Source of the DNA: Pararhodobacter aggregans
Lineage (GTDB): Bacteria; Pseudomonadota; Alphaproteobacteria; Rhodobacterales; Rhodobacteraceae
DNA length: 64,000 nucleotides
Direction: 5' to 3'
Assembly (NCBI RefSeq): GCF_003075525.1
Contig: NZ_QDDR01000002.1
Span: 434,001 to 498,000 of the forward strand
Shown here: positions 31,457 to 45,774 of the stretch, one piece after another
Layout: every line of letters begins with the position of its first letter
How positions within the stretch are numbered: position 1 is the first letter of the stretch
The notes under the pieces: generated by a model
Told to the model about the DNA's origin: nothing
Seen by the model: only the letters and a program-made list of their open reading frames with translations
Database searches by the model: none
Made by a program: the position numbers and the translations under genes

Positions 31457-32461
31457 TTAGCCGAGTTTGCCGATCTCTGCCGCGGTATCGAGCATCCGGT
31501 TGGAAAAGCCCCATTCGTTGTCATACCAGGCCAGCACCCGCACCATCGTCCCGTCCATGACCTTGGTCTGGTCGAGGGCGACGATGGACGAGCGCCGGTC
31601 ATGGTTGAAATCGACCGAGACATTGGGCAGCGCGGTGACGCCCAGGATGCCCTTCAGGGGGCCCTCGGCCGCGGCGGCCGTGAGGGCCGCGTTCACCTCG
31701 TCCTTCGAGGTGGCGCGCCCGGCCTCGATCACCAGATCCACGGCCGAGACATTGGGCGTGGGCACCCGGATCGCCACGCCGTCGAGCTTGCCGTCGAGTT
31801 CGGGCAGCACCAGCCCTACCGCCTTGGCGGCGCCGGTCGAGGTGGGGATCATGCTGAGCGCCGCGGCCCGGGCGCGGTAGAGATCCTTGTGCAGCGTGTC
31901 CAGCGTCGGCTGATCGCCGGTGTAGCTGTGGATCGTGGTCATGAAACCCTTGTTGATGCCGATCGCGTCGTTCAGCACCTTGGCCACCGGGCTCAGGCAA
32001 TTGGTGGTGCAGGAGGCGTTGGAAATGATCTTGTGCTCGGGGCGCAGGACCTTGTGGTTCACGCCATAGACCACGGTCGCATCGGCCCCTTTCGAGGGGG
32101 CCGAGACCAGCACCCGCGTCGCGCCATTCTCCAGATGCACGCGGGCCTTTTCGGCATCGGTGAAGATGCCGGTGCATTCCAGCACCACATCGACATGCTG
32201 CCAGGGCAGCTCGGCCGGGTTGCGGATGGCGGTGACCTGGATGCGGCCGCCGCCGACATCCATCCAGTCATCGCCGGTCGTCACCTCGCCGTCATAGCGG
32301 CCATGGACGGAATCGAAGCGCATCAGATGCGCGTTGGTCTCCACCGGGCCGAGGTCGTTGATGGCGACGACCTGAAGGTCCGAGCGCTTCTGGTCCATCA
32401 GCGCGCGCAGGACAAGGCGGCCGATGCGGCCGAAGCCATTGATGGCAAGTGTGGTGGTCAT
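31457..32461 (-). CDS. gap: Glyceraldehyde-3-phosphate dehydrogenase, NAD-type residue pattern
   Basis: A 334-residue GAPDH. It has the Rossmann start [12 protein letters not shown], catalytic Cys151 in SNASCTTNC, His in [12 protein letters not shown], and [12 protein letters not shown] at the C-terminus. After the second strand the sequence is VVAINDLG; Asp36 is the residue that favours NAD in glycolytic enzymes. It has its own promoter with a palindrome over the -10. It is about two thirds identical by eye to the second copy at 33581-34582, with the cytochrome b/PepSY pair between. A glycolytic role is inferred from Asp36. Confidence 0.95.
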
Positions 32462-32501: not shown

Positions 32502-32538
32502 TGTTTGCGCTAACACCACGTTTCGCCGGAAAAGTCAA
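32502..32538 (-). promoter_or_regulatory. gap (first copy) promoter with palindromic operator
   Basis: On the minus strand the -35 is TTGACT (32533-32538), with a 17-base spacer to -10 TGTTAG (32510-32515). The -10 is the first part of a perfect 14-bp operator pattern TGTTAGCGCAAACA (32502-32515), symmetrical around GCGC. The core 12 bases match exactly, in the same orientation relative to the gene, those at 34715-34726. A LacI-family repressor is the likely binder; CceR, a central-carbon regulator described in Rhodobacter, is a candidate by analogy. Confidence 0.7.
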
Positions 32539-32589
32539 CCGTCGGCGGCGGAAAACGGCTCTGCCGGTGGGGTCGGCAGAGCCAGGCGG

Positions 32590-33135
32590 TCAGTGGAGGT
32601 CGAGCACTTCGACCCCCTCGGGCACCGGCTTGTCGCCGGTGATCATGGCCCGCGCCAGGTTGATCCCGATGCGCCGGCTTTCCCAGATGACGGCGGCGAC
32701 ATGCGCCGCGACCGAGAGTTCGGCCCAGGTGACCAGCGCCTCGTGCAGCTCCTTGACCCAGCCCACGCCCCAATAGGCGAGGGTCGTCTGCATGTAGCCG
32801 GTGACGGCGATGGCGATCACGGTCAGCAGGATGTTGACGATCATCAGTGCGCCCAGCGGCGTATGGCCCAGATGGGCCCGGCGGCGATGGGCGCGGATGT
32901 CGCCGATCTGTTCGGCCACCGCGAAGGGCGTGGGCAGGAAATCGGCGAAGCGGGCGCGGGCCGGGCCGATCAGTCCCCAGACGATCCTGAGGCCGATCAG
33001 CGCCGCTACCGCGTAGCCAACCCAGCGATGCAGCCGGCTTTCAGGGTCGAGGATCAGCGCATTCAGAGCAAAGAGCGTGACCAGCGACCAGTGAAAGAGC
33101 CGCAGGAACGGGTCCCAGACATGGTAGCGGCGCAT
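32590..33135 (-). CDS. Cytochrome b561-type membrane electron carrier
   Basis: A 181-residue di-haem cytochrome b of the Ni/Fe-hydrogenase cytochrome b / b561 family with four membrane helices (about 15-33, 38-58, 95-118, 135-158). Likely haem-ligand histidines lie in LFHWSLV (residue ~15), SRLHRWVGYAV, KELHEALV and VAAHVAAVIW. It should pass electrons between quinone and a periplasmic partner. The PepSY gene ends three bases before it, so the pair is one operon. Similar cytochrome b/PepSY pairs are common in proteobacteria; the electron donor is unknown. Confidence 0.88.
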   Translation of the reverse strand: MRRYHVWDPFLRLFHWSLVTLFALNALILDPESRLHRWVGYAVAALIGLRIVWGLIGPARARFADFLPTPFAVAEQIGDIRAHRRRAHLGHTPLGALMIVNILLTVIAIAVTGYMQTTLAYWGVGWVKELHEALVTWAELSVAAHVAAVIWESRRIGINLARAMITGDKPVPEGVEVLDLH

Positions 33136-33138
33136 GGC

Positions 33139-33393
33139 TCAGCCCTCGTTGCTGCGCAGGATCTGCAGCGCCTCGTTGAGGTAGATCTCGTAGACATGGC
33201 CGTCCTTGACGGCATAGGCCTCGTAAAGCCCGTCTTCCACGGCGACGCGGCGCACCTCGTAGCCCTGCGCGGTCAGCAGGCTGGTGATCTGCGCCTGGAC
33301 CTCGGCGCTGGGGGCGGCTTCGGTTTCGGCCAGCGCCGGCAGGGCGAGCATCGTTGCAAGGGCGGCGGCGAGGGTGAGGCTGGTGCGGGACAT
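33139..33393 (-). CDS. PepSY-domain periplasmic protein
   Basis: An 84-residue protein with a Sec signal peptide (SLTLAAALATMLALPALAE) and one PepSY domain (about 30-82; ITSLLTAQGYEVRRVAVEDGLYEAYAVKDGHVYEIYLNEA). It probably partners the cytochrome b encoded three bases downstream. ATG 33393 is chosen for the signal peptide. The pair lies downstream of the second gap gene's terminator, so it should have its own promoter in 33394-33520. Confidence 0.85.
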   Translation of the reverse strand: MSRTSLTLAAALATMLALPALAETEAAPSAEVQAQITSLLTAQGYEVRRVAVEDGLYEAYAVKDGHVYEIYLNEALQILRSNEG

Positions 33394-33524
33394 GAGGGAT
33401 CCTTGATCGGTGAGGGTCGGGGCGACATGCCCCAGGCTGGCCCCGATCTGCCCCCTCCGCCGGGGCGCCGCCATTGGTCCCGGGGCGGATCCCGGTCGCC
33501 TCAACCCCGGGGTGGAGACGAAAA

Positions 33525-33548
33525 AGGGCCCGTCCGAAGACGGGCCCT
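33525..33548 (-). terminator. Rho-independent terminator of gap (second copy)
   Basis: On the minus strand AGGGCCCGTC pairs with GACGGGCCCT around a TTCG tetraloop and runs into T5. This is the clearest terminator in the window. Confidence 0.92.
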
Positions 33549-33580
33549 GGCACTCGGAACGAACCCGAATGTCTGGCAGA

Positions 33581-34582
33581 TCAGATCAGGCGGCCCATGG
33601 CGCCGGCCACATCGGCCATGCGGCACGAGAAGCCCCATTCGTTGTCATACCAGGCCAGCACCCGCACCGTGCGCTTGCCGACGACCTTGGTCTGGTCGGG
33701 GGCGAAGATCGAGGAATGCGTGGTGTGGTTGAAGTCGATGGAGACCTTGGGCTCGGGGTCATAGGCCAGCACATGGCCCATGGCACCGGCGGCGGCCTCG
33801 CGCATGATCTCGTTCACGTCGGCCACGGTCACGTCCTTGCCGGCGACGAAGGTCAGGTCCACGGCCGAGACGTTCGGCGTGGGGACGCGGATCGCGGTGC
33901 CGTCGAGGCGCCCGGCCAGTTCCGGCAGCACTTCGCCCAGCGCCTTGGCGGCCCCGGTCGAGGTGGGGATCATCGCCATGGCGGCGGCGCGGGCGCGGTA
34001 GAGGTCCTTGTGGCGGCGGTCCAGCGTCGGCTGGTCGCCGGTGTAGCTGTGGATCGTGGTCATGATGCCCGATTCGATGCCGATGGCGTCGTTCAGGACC
34101 TTGGCCAGCGGCGCCAGGCAGTTGGTGGTGCACGACCCGTTCGAGACGACCAGATGCTCGGCGGTCAGCGCGCGGTGGTTCACGCCATAGACGATGGTCT
34201 TGTCGGCGTTCTTGGCGGGCGCCGAGACCAGCACGCGCTTGGCGCCCCGGCCCAGATGCACGGCGGCCTTGTTGCGGTCGTTGAACTTGCCGGTGCATTC
34301 CAGCACCACGTCCACGCCCTGCCAGTCCAGTTCCTCGGGGTTGTAGGTCGACATGACGCGGATCGGGCCGCGGCCCAGGTCCAGCTGGTTGCCTTCGACC
34401 CGGACGGTGCCGGGGAAGCGGCCATGGACCGAATCGTATTTCAAGAGGTGCGCGTTGGTCTCGATCGGGCCGGTCGCATTGATGGCGACGACCTCGACAT
34501 CGTTGCGGGCGCTTTCCGCGATATGGGCCAGCGTGCAGCGGCCAATGCGCCCGAAACCGTTGATACCGATGGTGATGGTCAT
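33581..34582 (-). CDS. gap: Glyceraldehyde-3-phosphate dehydrogenase, NADP-type (GapB-like) residue pattern
   Basis: A 333-residue GAPDH with Cys151 in SNGSCTTNC and all core motifs. The cofactor-selecting position reads VVAINATG, so Ala36 replaces the Asp36 of the first copy. Bacillus GapB, an NADP-dependent gluconeogenic enzyme, has a similar INAS pattern, which suggests this copy prefers NADP(H) and works in gluconeogenesis or carbon fixation. Its promoter carries two operator-like palindromes. It has its own strong terminator. Confidence 0.94.
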   Translation of the reverse strand: MTITIGINGFGRIGRCTLAHIAESARNDVEVVAINATGPIETNAHLLKYDSVHGRFPGTVRVEGNQLDLGRGPIRVMSTYNPEELDWQGVDVVLECTGKFNDRNKAAVHLGRGAKRVLVSAPAKNADKTIVYGVNHRALTAEHLVVSNGSCTTNCLAPLAKVLNDAIGIESGIMTTIHSYTGDQPTLDRRHKDLYRARAAAMAMIPTSTGAAKALGEVLPELAGRLDGTAIRVPTPNVSAVDLTFVAGKDVTVADVNEIMREAAAGAMGHVLAYDPEPKVSIDFNHTTHSSIFAPDQTKVVGKRTVRVLAWYDNEWGFSCRMADVAGAMGRLI

Positions 34583-34714
34583 GGTGTGTCTCCGTCAGGG
34601 GTCGGATGGGCGTCGGGGCGAAGGGGAGGGCGCCGCCGGCCGGGCCGAAGCATGCGCAGGGTATACCGGTTCGAAGATGGCAGAGAAAGGGCGAAAAGCG
34701 ATATTTCGCAAGGC

Positions 34715-34780
34715 GTTAGCGCAAACCGGGGGTTTCCCGCCCCTGTTTGCGTTAACGCCGCGGCCTCGGCTTGGTGTCAA
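34715..34780 (-). promoter_or_regulatory. gap (second copy) promoter with two palindromic operators
   Basis: On the minus strand the -35 is TTGACA (34775-34780). GTTAACGCAAAC (34745-34756) overlaps the -10 position 17-18 bases on. The distance from TTGAC to this palindrome is 18 bases, exactly as at the first gap gene. A second site, GTTTGCGCTAAC (34715-34726), has its centre 30 bases further downstream, about three helical turns, as expected for cooperative binding. Confidence 0.68.
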
Positions 34781-43700: not shown

Positions 43701-45713
43701 TCAGAGCAGCGCCTTGACCTTGGCCACGGTCGCCTCGGCGGTGATGCCGAATTCCTGATAGAGCCGTTCGGCCGGAGCCGAGGCGCCGAACGAGGTCATG
43801 CCGACGAAATCGGATTTCCGCGCCCGCTCGCCCAGCAGCCAGCGGTCCCAGCCGCCGGCGCGCACCGCCGCCTCGATGCCGACGCGCACCGGACCCGCGG
43901 GCAGGACGCGCTTGCGATAGGCCTCGTCCTGCTGGGCAAACAGCTCCATGCAGGGCATCGACACCACGCGCGTGCCGATCCCGTCGGCTTGCAGCAGGTC
44001 GCGGGCCTTCAGCGCGATCTCGACCTCGGACCCGGTGGCGATCAGGATCGCCTGGCGCTTGCCCTCGGCCTCGGCCAGGACATAGCCGCCCTGGGCCACC
44101 AGGTTCTTCGCCGTGTTCTGGCTGCGGGCCGGGGCGAGGTTCTGGCGCGAGAGCGAGATGACCGAGGGCGTGGCGGTCTGTTCCAGCGCCACTTCCCAGG
44201 CCTCGGCGGTTTCCACCAGATCGGCCGGGCGGAACACCAGCGTGTTGGGCGTGGCGCGGCTGATCGCCAGATGCTCGACCGGCTGGTGGGTCGGGCCATC
44301 CTCGCCCAGACCGATGGAATCATGGGTCATGACATAGACCACCGGGATCCCCATCAGCGCCGACAGGCGCATCGAGGGGCGGGCGTAATCGGTGAAGGCC
44401 ATGAAGGTGCCCGAATAGGGCCGCACGCCGCCATGCAGCGCCATGCCGTTCATCGCCGCGGCCATGCCATGCTCGCGGATGCCCCAATAGACGTAGCGGC
44501 CCTTGCGGCTGTCCACGTCGAAGACGCCCAGATCCTCGGTCTTGGTGTTGTTCGAGCCGGTGAGGTCGGCCGAGCCGCCCATCGTGTCGGTGACGATCGG
44601 GTTGACCGCCTTCAGCACGATCTCGGAGGCCGAGCGCGAGGCCATGGCCTTCGGCGCCTCGATGGCGGCTTTCTTGACGGCGCGGATCGCGGCGCCCAGG
44701 CGCTTGGGCAGGCCACGGGCAAAGATCCGCTCGAATTCGGCGCGCTTGGCCGGGGCCAGCGCGGCGATGCGGGCTTCCCATTCGGCGCGCTCAGTGGCGC
44801 CACGGCTGCCGATGGCTTCCCATTCGGCCTTGATGTCGGCCGGGATCTCGAAGGCGCCATGCTCCCAGCCATAGACGGCGCGGGTGTCGGCGATGAGCTT
44901 GGCGTCGGTCAGCGCGCCGTGACCCTTCGAGGTGTCCTGCGCGGAGGAACCCACGGCGATATGCGTCTTGCAGGCGACCAAAGCCGGGCGGGCCGAGGCC
45001 TTGGCGGCGGTGATGGCGCGGTCGATGGCCACGGGATCATGCCCGTCACATTCGAACACATCCCAGCCCGAAGCCGCAAACCGCGCCTTCTGGTCGGTCA
45101 CGTCCGACAGCGACACCTTGCCGTCGATGGTGATGCCGTTGTCGTCCCACAGGACAATCAGCTTCGACAGCTTGTGCCGCCCGGCAAGGCCGATGGCCTC
45201 CTGGCTCACGCCCTCCATCAGGCAGCCGTCGCCGGCGATGACATAGGTGTAATGGTTCTGGATCTTGGCACCCCAGCGGGCGCGCAGATGCTCCTCGGCC
45301 ATGGCGAAGCCGATGGAATTGGCGATGCCCTGACCCAGCGGGCCGGTCGTCGTCTCGACGCCCTTGGCATGACCGTATTCCGGGTGACCGGCGGTGATGG
45401 CGCCCCATTGGCGGAAGTTCTTGATCTGCGCCAGCGTCATGTCCGCGTAGCCGGTCAGGTGCAGCAGCGCGTAGATCAGCATCGAGCCATGGCCCGCCGA
45501 CAGGATGAAGCGGTCGCGGTCGGCCCAATCGGGGGCCGAGGCGTCGAATTTCAGATGGTTCTTGAACAGCACGGTCGCGACATCGGCCATCCCCATCGGC
45601 ATGCCGGAATGCCCGGACTTGGCGGCGGCGACCGCATCCATGGCGAGAACGCGGATGGCGGTGGCCAGGCGCCAATGGTCGGGGTGCTGGGTACGAAGCG
45701 AGGCGTAATCCAA
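43701..45713 (-). CDS. tkt: Transketolase, TTG start
   Basis: A 670-residue thiamine-diphosphate enzyme of the pentose-phosphate and Calvin pathways. The N-terminal domain has [13 protein letters not shown], and [18 protein letters not shown] is the ThDP motif (GDG...N-type). The middle domain has [21 protein letters not shown] with the catalytic Glu. The length is usual. The start is TTG at 45713: AAAGGA lies 8 bases upstream and the next in-frame ATG would remove conserved residues. The promoter carries half of the operator seen at both gap genes. Confidence 0.95.
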
Positions 45714-45735: not shown

Positions 45736-45774
45736 TGTTAGCGCGCCTCATAGCAGGCTTGGGACCGAGATCAA
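45736..45774 (-). promoter_or_regulatory. tkt promoter with GCGCTAACA half-operator
   Basis: On the minus strand the -35 is TTGATC (45769-45774), the spacer is 16 bases, and the -10 is TATGAG (45747-45752). CGCGCTAACA (45736-45745) lies at the predicted start site and matches one half of the gap operators (GCGCTAAC). The opposite half is not conserved. Confidence 0.55.

Follow-up and report, generated by a model that had tools for sequence, protein, structure and literature searches.

The window considered here, a stretch of 64,000 nucleotides of the Pararhodobacter aggregans genome (contig NZ_QDDR01000002.1, positions 434,001 to 498,000), contains two neighbouring genes for type I glyceraldehyde-3-phosphate dehydrogenase (GAPDH), gap1 and gap2, and the transketolase gene tkt (Table 1). 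Three palindromes in front of the two gap genes are probably operators of CceR/GapR, a LacI-family regulator of central carbon metabolism that, in the model developed below, would repress gap1 and activate gap2. The two enzymes differ in the residue that selects nicotinamide adenine dinucleotide (NAD): comparison of gap2 with 3doc revealed replacement of this Asp by Ala. The Asp determines the coenzyme choice of GAPDH, and its loss suits the phosphorylated coenzyme NADP and gluconeogenesis, as in GapB enzymes. The closest relatives of gap2 are found in Rhodobacteraceae. For comparisons between genomes, family genes at least 73% identical to gap2 were designated gap2-type, the copy beside a gap2-type gene was designated gap1-type, and copies standing alone or at a distance formed the class "other". 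Among the rows whose alignment spanned the residue, with some genes counted twice owing to overlapping loci, the Asp is kept in 39 of 39 gap1-type rows and Ala is present in 47 of 47 gap2-type rows. In many relatives gap1 lies within about 500 bases after gap2, whereas here a cytochrome b561 gene (PF01292, 68.1 bits; 32590-33135, minus strand) is located between the two.

Table 1 Genes, putative operators and promoter elements in the window
Feature	Position	Strand	Description	Evidence
gap1	31457..32461	minus	type I GAPDH with NAD-selecting Asp (AINDLG)	TIGR01534, 424.5 bits
gap1 operator	32502..32515	minus	TGTTAGCGCAAACA, over predicted -10	letters confirmed
gap1 predicted -10	32510..32515	minus	TGTTAG, inside operator	17 bases after TTGACT, consensus reasoning
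gap1 predicted -35	32533..32538	minus	TTGACT	TTGAC 19-20 bases before GTT in 9/17 family promoters
gap2	33581..34582	minus	type I GAPDH, Ala replacing NAD-selecting Asp (AINATG), GapB-like	TIGR01534, 408.8 bits
gap2 conserved -10	34660..34665	minus	TATACC	TATA in 17/17 aligned genus promoters
gap2 proximal operator	34715..34726		GTTAGCGCAAAC on plus, GTTTGCGCTAAC on minus; start 61 bases upstream of -10	
gap2 distal operator	34745..34756	minus	GTTAACGCAAAC; start 91 bases upstream of -10	letters confirmed
TTGACA, gap2 -35 of the preliminary description	34775..34780	minus	probably chance	not conserved, absent there in G088
tkt	43701..45713	minus	transketolase, TTG start at 45713	TIGR00232, 760.5 bits
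tkt half-site	45736..45744		TGTTAGCGC, GCGCTAACA on minus; adjoins -10-like TATGAG	not supported as operator

The palindromes reported in the preliminary description were recovered letter for letter, as was the relation between them: the proximal gap2 site GTTAGCGCAAAC is the 12-mer of the gap1 site in the opposite orientation, and the centres of the two gap2 sites are 30 bases apart. With one mismatch allowed, GTTWRCGYWAAC occurs three times in the window, compared with 0.15 occurrences expected. All three matches are free of mismatches, and none of 100 shuffles of the window reached this number. Over the whole genome searched (5.08 Mb in 32 contigs) the mismatch-free sequence is present at four places, three of which are those in the window. 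The three palindromes are real and conserved. Each fits the GTT-N6-AAC core of the motif [AGT]GTT-N6-8-AAC[ACT] published for RSP_1663 (PMC4344238), and the gap1 site also has the prescribed outer bases (T, A). The searches covered the N6 form of the published N6-8 spacings.

Conservation of the sites was followed through the relatives. In genomes that possess the candidate regulator (see below), an operator with at most one mismatch was found in 33 of 34 gap2-type regions, 24 of them with exact GTTNNCGNNAAC, and in 16 of 17 gap1-type regions, 12 of them exact. Counted by genome, 28 of the 46 that possess the regulator carry an exact site at a gap gene, but only 1 of the 13 that lack it (Fisher p 0.001, a value that ignores common descent); with one mismatch allowed, the corresponding numbers are 33 of 46 and 2 of 13 (p 0.0008, likewise ignoring descent). 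These counts leave out G029 and G077, which had no gap match, and the region of G036 comprised 142 bases. The clearest exception is G061, with gap2-type genes and an exact operator (L204) and no match to the candidate regulator; the gene may have been lost or lie on a missing contig, or a different regulator may act there. Among the named loci, of which L085 was left out, the 300 bases upstream of rhizobial gap genes (Bradyrhizobium and Agrobacterium among them) contained no site with a central CG. Nor did the 300 bases upstream of the gap genes of Paracoccus and R. capsulatus, which do have relatives of the regulator (L123, L118); the gap sites therefore follow the gap2-gap1 pair more than the regulator alone.

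The position of the sites relative to the promoters differs between the two genes. A succession of TTGAC, 18 bases and palindrome is found at both of them (TTGAC on the minus strand at 32538-32534 and 34780-34776), and both palindromes had been taken to cover a -10 region. For gap1 this view was borne out. In 9 of 17 family promoters TTGAC stands 19-20 bases before the operator, which therefore covers the predicted -10, and in the genus TTGAC was seen by eye before the gap1 operator in six of the nine genomes that have the operator. At gap2 the shared layout had to be rejected: TTGAC 19 bases before GTT is unique to this genome among 36 family gap2 regions and among 17 genus genomes, and it is missing in G088, the nearest genome, which has a 100% identical gap2 protein. 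A conserved -10 lies elsewhere, downstream of both operators, so that the gap2 sites would occupy the positions of an activator.

The distances between the gap2 operators and this -10 fall into groups. In the genus, the -10 lies 61-62 bases after the start of the proximal operator in 13 of 17 genomes and 70-72 bases in the other four. Of 50 genus and family gap2 promoters, the 37 with a full TATA were tallied and the 13 without it left out; two gap2 regions had no operator, and where candidates for the -10 tied, the one closer to 61 bases was chosen, a rule in favour of that peak. The proximal sites start at 59-62 bases in 31 promoters, at 70-72 in four and at 52-53 in two. The 37 further sites comprise 2 at 71-72, 8 at 80-81, 19 at 89-92, 2 at 102 and 3 at 112-114, with one each at 94, 144 and 166. 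The distances thus cluster at 59-62, 70-72, 80-81, 89-92, 102 and 112-114. Phasing gave p 5e-5 for 14 distinct distances tested against a uniform distribution from 62 to 140, although 144 and 166 lie beyond that range; the spacings between operators alone gave p 0.0018, and both values ignore descent. Between the two gap2 operators the distance is 29-31 bases in 13 of 17 genus genomes (30 in nine) and 19 bases in three; one genome has a single site. Where the spacing is 19, the proximal site has moved 9-11 bases further out while the distal site remains at 89-91. The 18-base spacer of the 30-spaced sites is 35% identical, compared with 71% over the 28 bases that follow the proximal site (average of 35 pairs from nine genomes, the near-identical pair of this genome and G088 left out). 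The spacing is kept while the spacer sequence drifts, and across these poorly conserved spacers the gap2 operators would lie mostly on one face of the helix. The initial estimate of about three helix turns between the two sites is thereby supported, and it extends to the genus, the family and the distance to the -10.

Two other genes show the same two arrangements. At pckA an operator without mismatch is located 70-71 bases before TATAG in 17 of 17 genus genomes, and a second one, 50-51 bases before TATAG, is found in all 17 with at most two mismatches and in ten with one. At edd an operator precedes the start by 45-101 bases in 15 of the 16 genus loci whose start could be read, locus L351 lacking a start and standing outside the count; in this genome, as read by eye, it falls between TTGCGG and TATAGG. 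Taken together, the promoter predictions place the operator on the core promoter at edd and gap1 and upstream of it at pckA and gap2. The distances of the gap2 and pckA sites from the -10 amount to about 51, 61, 71, 80, 91, 102 and 113 bases.

The genes that carry the sites are those expected of a known regulon. GTTNNCGNNAAC occurs at 29 places of the genome outside the gap promoters, and four of these are located upstream of genes that NCBIfam models name edd, zwf, eda and pckA. A simple binomial estimate puts at about 8e-9 the chance that at least four of 29 places fall into 13 target regions, each of 300 bases, 13 being the largest number of operons per genome given for GapR (PMC4052901). 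The surroundings of 23 places were read with a home-made scorer of open reading frames, from which the gene ends were taken, and those of the last six were checked for open frames only. In this genome, where alone they were read, the zwf site precedes the start by 19 bases and the eda site by 57 bases; the edd and pckA sites are present across the genus as well. The predicted GapR targets listed in PMC4052901 include edd, zwf, eda, pckA, gapA and gapB; tkt is absent from that list. Sites at fba, eno, pykA, pycA, tal and mdh are also characteristic of the CceR/GapR regulon. Further matches in this genome that adjoin unrelated genes (L012, L014 and L157 among them) are likely due to chance. A mismatch-free operator-like site at G000:C13:83950-83961 (L004) is flanked by an oxidoreductase-like gene and an HTH_3 regulator gene, whose called starts are each about 260 bases away; it is possibly a further target or a chance occurrence.

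Six LacI genes are present in the genome. One of them, at G000:C3:23112-24224, encodes a GntR-like protein with a helix-turn-helix domain (PF00356, 63.9 bits) and a sugar-binding domain (PF00532, 85.7 bits). Of 61 family genomes, 48, its own included, contain an ortholog that scores above 360 bits, and the candidate is 76% identical to a protein of R. capsulatus, whose genome contains three LacI genes. The stretch GVSEMTVSRVLR, expected to recognize the operator, is identical in 19 of 19 orthologs that pass 400 bits (22 loci given). GntR and IdnR are local gluconate regulators. Their NCBIfam models score best with the candidate (282.6 and 210 bits), yet the respective cut-offs of 400 and 500 are not reached. 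The gene is most likely that of CceR/GapR. A LacI-family central-carbon regulator of the CceR kind had been proposed at the outset, and this proposal is well supported by the core motif, the sites at gap, edd, zwf, eda and pckA, and the conserved LacI ortholog.

CceR was reportedly given its name in a 2015 mBio paper. The regulator is known from Rhodobacter sphaeroides and Paracoccus denitrificans, and the operators described here share the GTT-N6-AAC core with the RSP_1663 motif. CceR represses glycolytic and activates gluconeogenic enzymes, and in P. denitrificans lacking cceR the gluconeogenic enzymes, including PckA, are reduced and the glycolytic ones increased (PMC11323563); its effector is 6-phosphogluconate (PMC4419725). 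GapR of Rhodobacteraceae, RSP_1663, is a LacI-family protein for which a palindromic operator with a 20-base consensus has been given (PMC4052901). It resembles the system found here in the regulator family, the palindromic operator and the targets gapA, gapB, zwf, edd-eda and pckA. The target section of the GapR account contains neither the geometry of operator and promoter nor the sign of regulation for the two gap genes (PMC4052901). Cra/FruR of enteric bacteria likewise belongs to the LacI family and acts in both directions, as a repressor of glycolytic and an activator of gluconeogenic genes, but it forms a group separate from GapR (PMC4052901) and responds to fructose 1,6-bisphosphate, in contrast to CceR with its 6-phosphogluconate (PMC4419725); the two are set apart here by description.

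Based on these observations we propose that the palindromes are CceR/GapR operators through which gap1 is repressed and gap2 activated, a reading to which we assign a probability of about 0.78. The location of the gap2 operators upstream of the conserved -10 suggests opposite effects on gap1 and gap2, and opposite regulation is further supported by the Asp/Ala difference and the dual role of CceR in P. denitrificans. According to this model, CceR would bind its operators when 6-phosphogluconate is scarce. At gap1 it would cover the -10 and shut off the NAD-type glycolytic GAPDH, and at gap2, where two sites on the same helical face start 61 and 91 bases upstream of the -10, it would aid RNA polymerase, so that more of the GapB-like GAPDH suited to gluconeogenesis would be formed. 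Once 6-phosphogluconate rises, repression of gap1 and activation of gap2 would be reversed, release of CceR by 6-phosphogluconate being presumed from its published effector role. tkt would stand outside this scheme.

Several observations weigh against the proposal. The main text of the P. denitrificans CceR study does not name GAPDH (PMC11323563). The candidate is the presumed ortholog of RSP_1663, and its autoregulation was rejected, as the best motif match upstream of its gene has two mismatches. The gap2 sites depart from the outer bases of [AGT]GTT..AAC[ACT], with C before one core and G after the other, and the second pckA site of this genome has two mismatches. The promoter calls are based on consensus and conservation rather than transcripts, and gap2 sites at 52, 53 and 94 bases are off the common phase. 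No site was found at any gap gene read in 13 of the 46 genomes with the regulator. The 300 bases upstream of the gap genes in R. capsulatus (L071) and P. kondratievae (L073), species that both have an ortholog, contained none either; other gap regions in genomes with the regulator had a site with at most one mismatch in 6 of 20 cases, and 7 had an exact one by the looser pattern. Conversely, G061 and G018 were counted as lacking the regulator yet have a site with at most one mismatch, that of G061 being exact, and some of the 13 genomes counted as lacking it are incomplete assemblies. In the genus, 14 genomes were read at gap1, this one among them and three third-type GAPDH rows (L306-L308) left out; gap1 sites were missing in 5 of the 14. 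Finally, the genome contains no excess of the motif: 29 matches with at most one mismatch were found, compared with 30 for the reversed pattern, and 32 of the looser GTTNNCGNNAAC, compared with 35. Random scatter over the genome had been set beforehand as a test of the proposal; the motif is scattered in number but not in placement. The signal therefore resides in where the sites lie and not in how many there are.

The lack of a genome-wide excess might be taken to mean that the palindromes arose by chance or serve a factor outside the LacI family. This can hardly be entertained in view of the conservation of the sites upstream of family gap genes despite divergent spacers and of the matching sites at published CceR targets. 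With six LacI genes in the genome, the sites could also belong to a LacI protein other than the CceR ortholog, such as a second GntR-like one (L021), which shares 36% identity with the candidate and is preceded, at 190 bases, by a one-mismatch site. L021 is, however, divergent from an L-arabinonate dehydratase gene, the setting of a local regulator, and one of the three LacI proteins of R. capsulatus is 76% identical to the candidate; this assignment is considered very improbable. Somewhat more weight, though still little, is given to repression of both genes by CceR, whereby two dimers at the in-phase gap2 sites would block a TTGACA promoter or exclude the polymerase downstream. Paired in-phase sites are also used by repressors, and TTGACA with an operator over a candidate -10 does exist in this genome. 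Arguing against this possibility are the restriction of TTGAC at that distance to this genome, the TATA that follows the proximal site at 61 or 70-72 bases and is kept in all 17 genus genomes, and the similar upstream pair at pckA, whose product is lowered in the P. denitrificans cceR mutant (PMC11323563).

With gap1 probably repressed and gap2 probably activated, a known regulatory system is found in one more bacterium with an unusually clear layout. The published regulon is tied to a concrete promoter anatomy, the picture of gap2 is corrected, and the same operator would block one GAPDH gene and probably boost the other. We lean slightly towards a more general formulation, in which a single regulator has opposite effects on two adjacent GAPDH paralogs by operator position alone, the gap2 and pckA sites shift by whole helix turns and rarely leave one face, and the sign of control is readable from the sequence across Rhodobacteraceae. 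If this face-of-helix rule is true, the sign of CceR control could be predicted from sequence, to the benefit of studies on sugar utilization in Rhodobacter and Paracoccus.

The preliminary description had also included tkt under the same control through a half-site at its predicted start; the half-site lies upstream of the TTG start, and this claim was abandoned. A full site is absent from all of 30 family and 17 genus tkt promoters, this genome being in both sets, and the 9-mer of the half-site, with one mismatch allowed, occurs 8 times in the window compared with 9.3 expected, not beyond chance. Neither a full site nor an entry in the published target list thus marks tkt as a CceR/GapR target, and the half-site was rejected as an operator. 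In the family set CGCTAAC lies near the tkt start in this genome alone, two other promoters having a stray half far upstream (L270 at -135, L272 at -266). In the genus it is found close to the tkt -10 in 6 of 17 genomes, this one included, always as a half. In some genomes of the genus the tkt -10 is followed by CGCTAAC or a similar stretch ending in AAC (L260 and L353-L368), and the CGCTAAC half at tkt may be an element of the start site.

Two other loci outside the window touch on the same gene families. A one-mismatch site at G000:C10:71900 (L156) lies between the second GntR-like LacI gene and the L-arabinonate dehydratase gene, and this LacI gene likely encodes a local sugar-acid regulator. 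A third type I GAPDH gene, with no operator within 400 bases upstream, adjoins a second transketolase gene (G000:C1:529067-532039), and the two perhaps belong to a Calvin-cycle operon.

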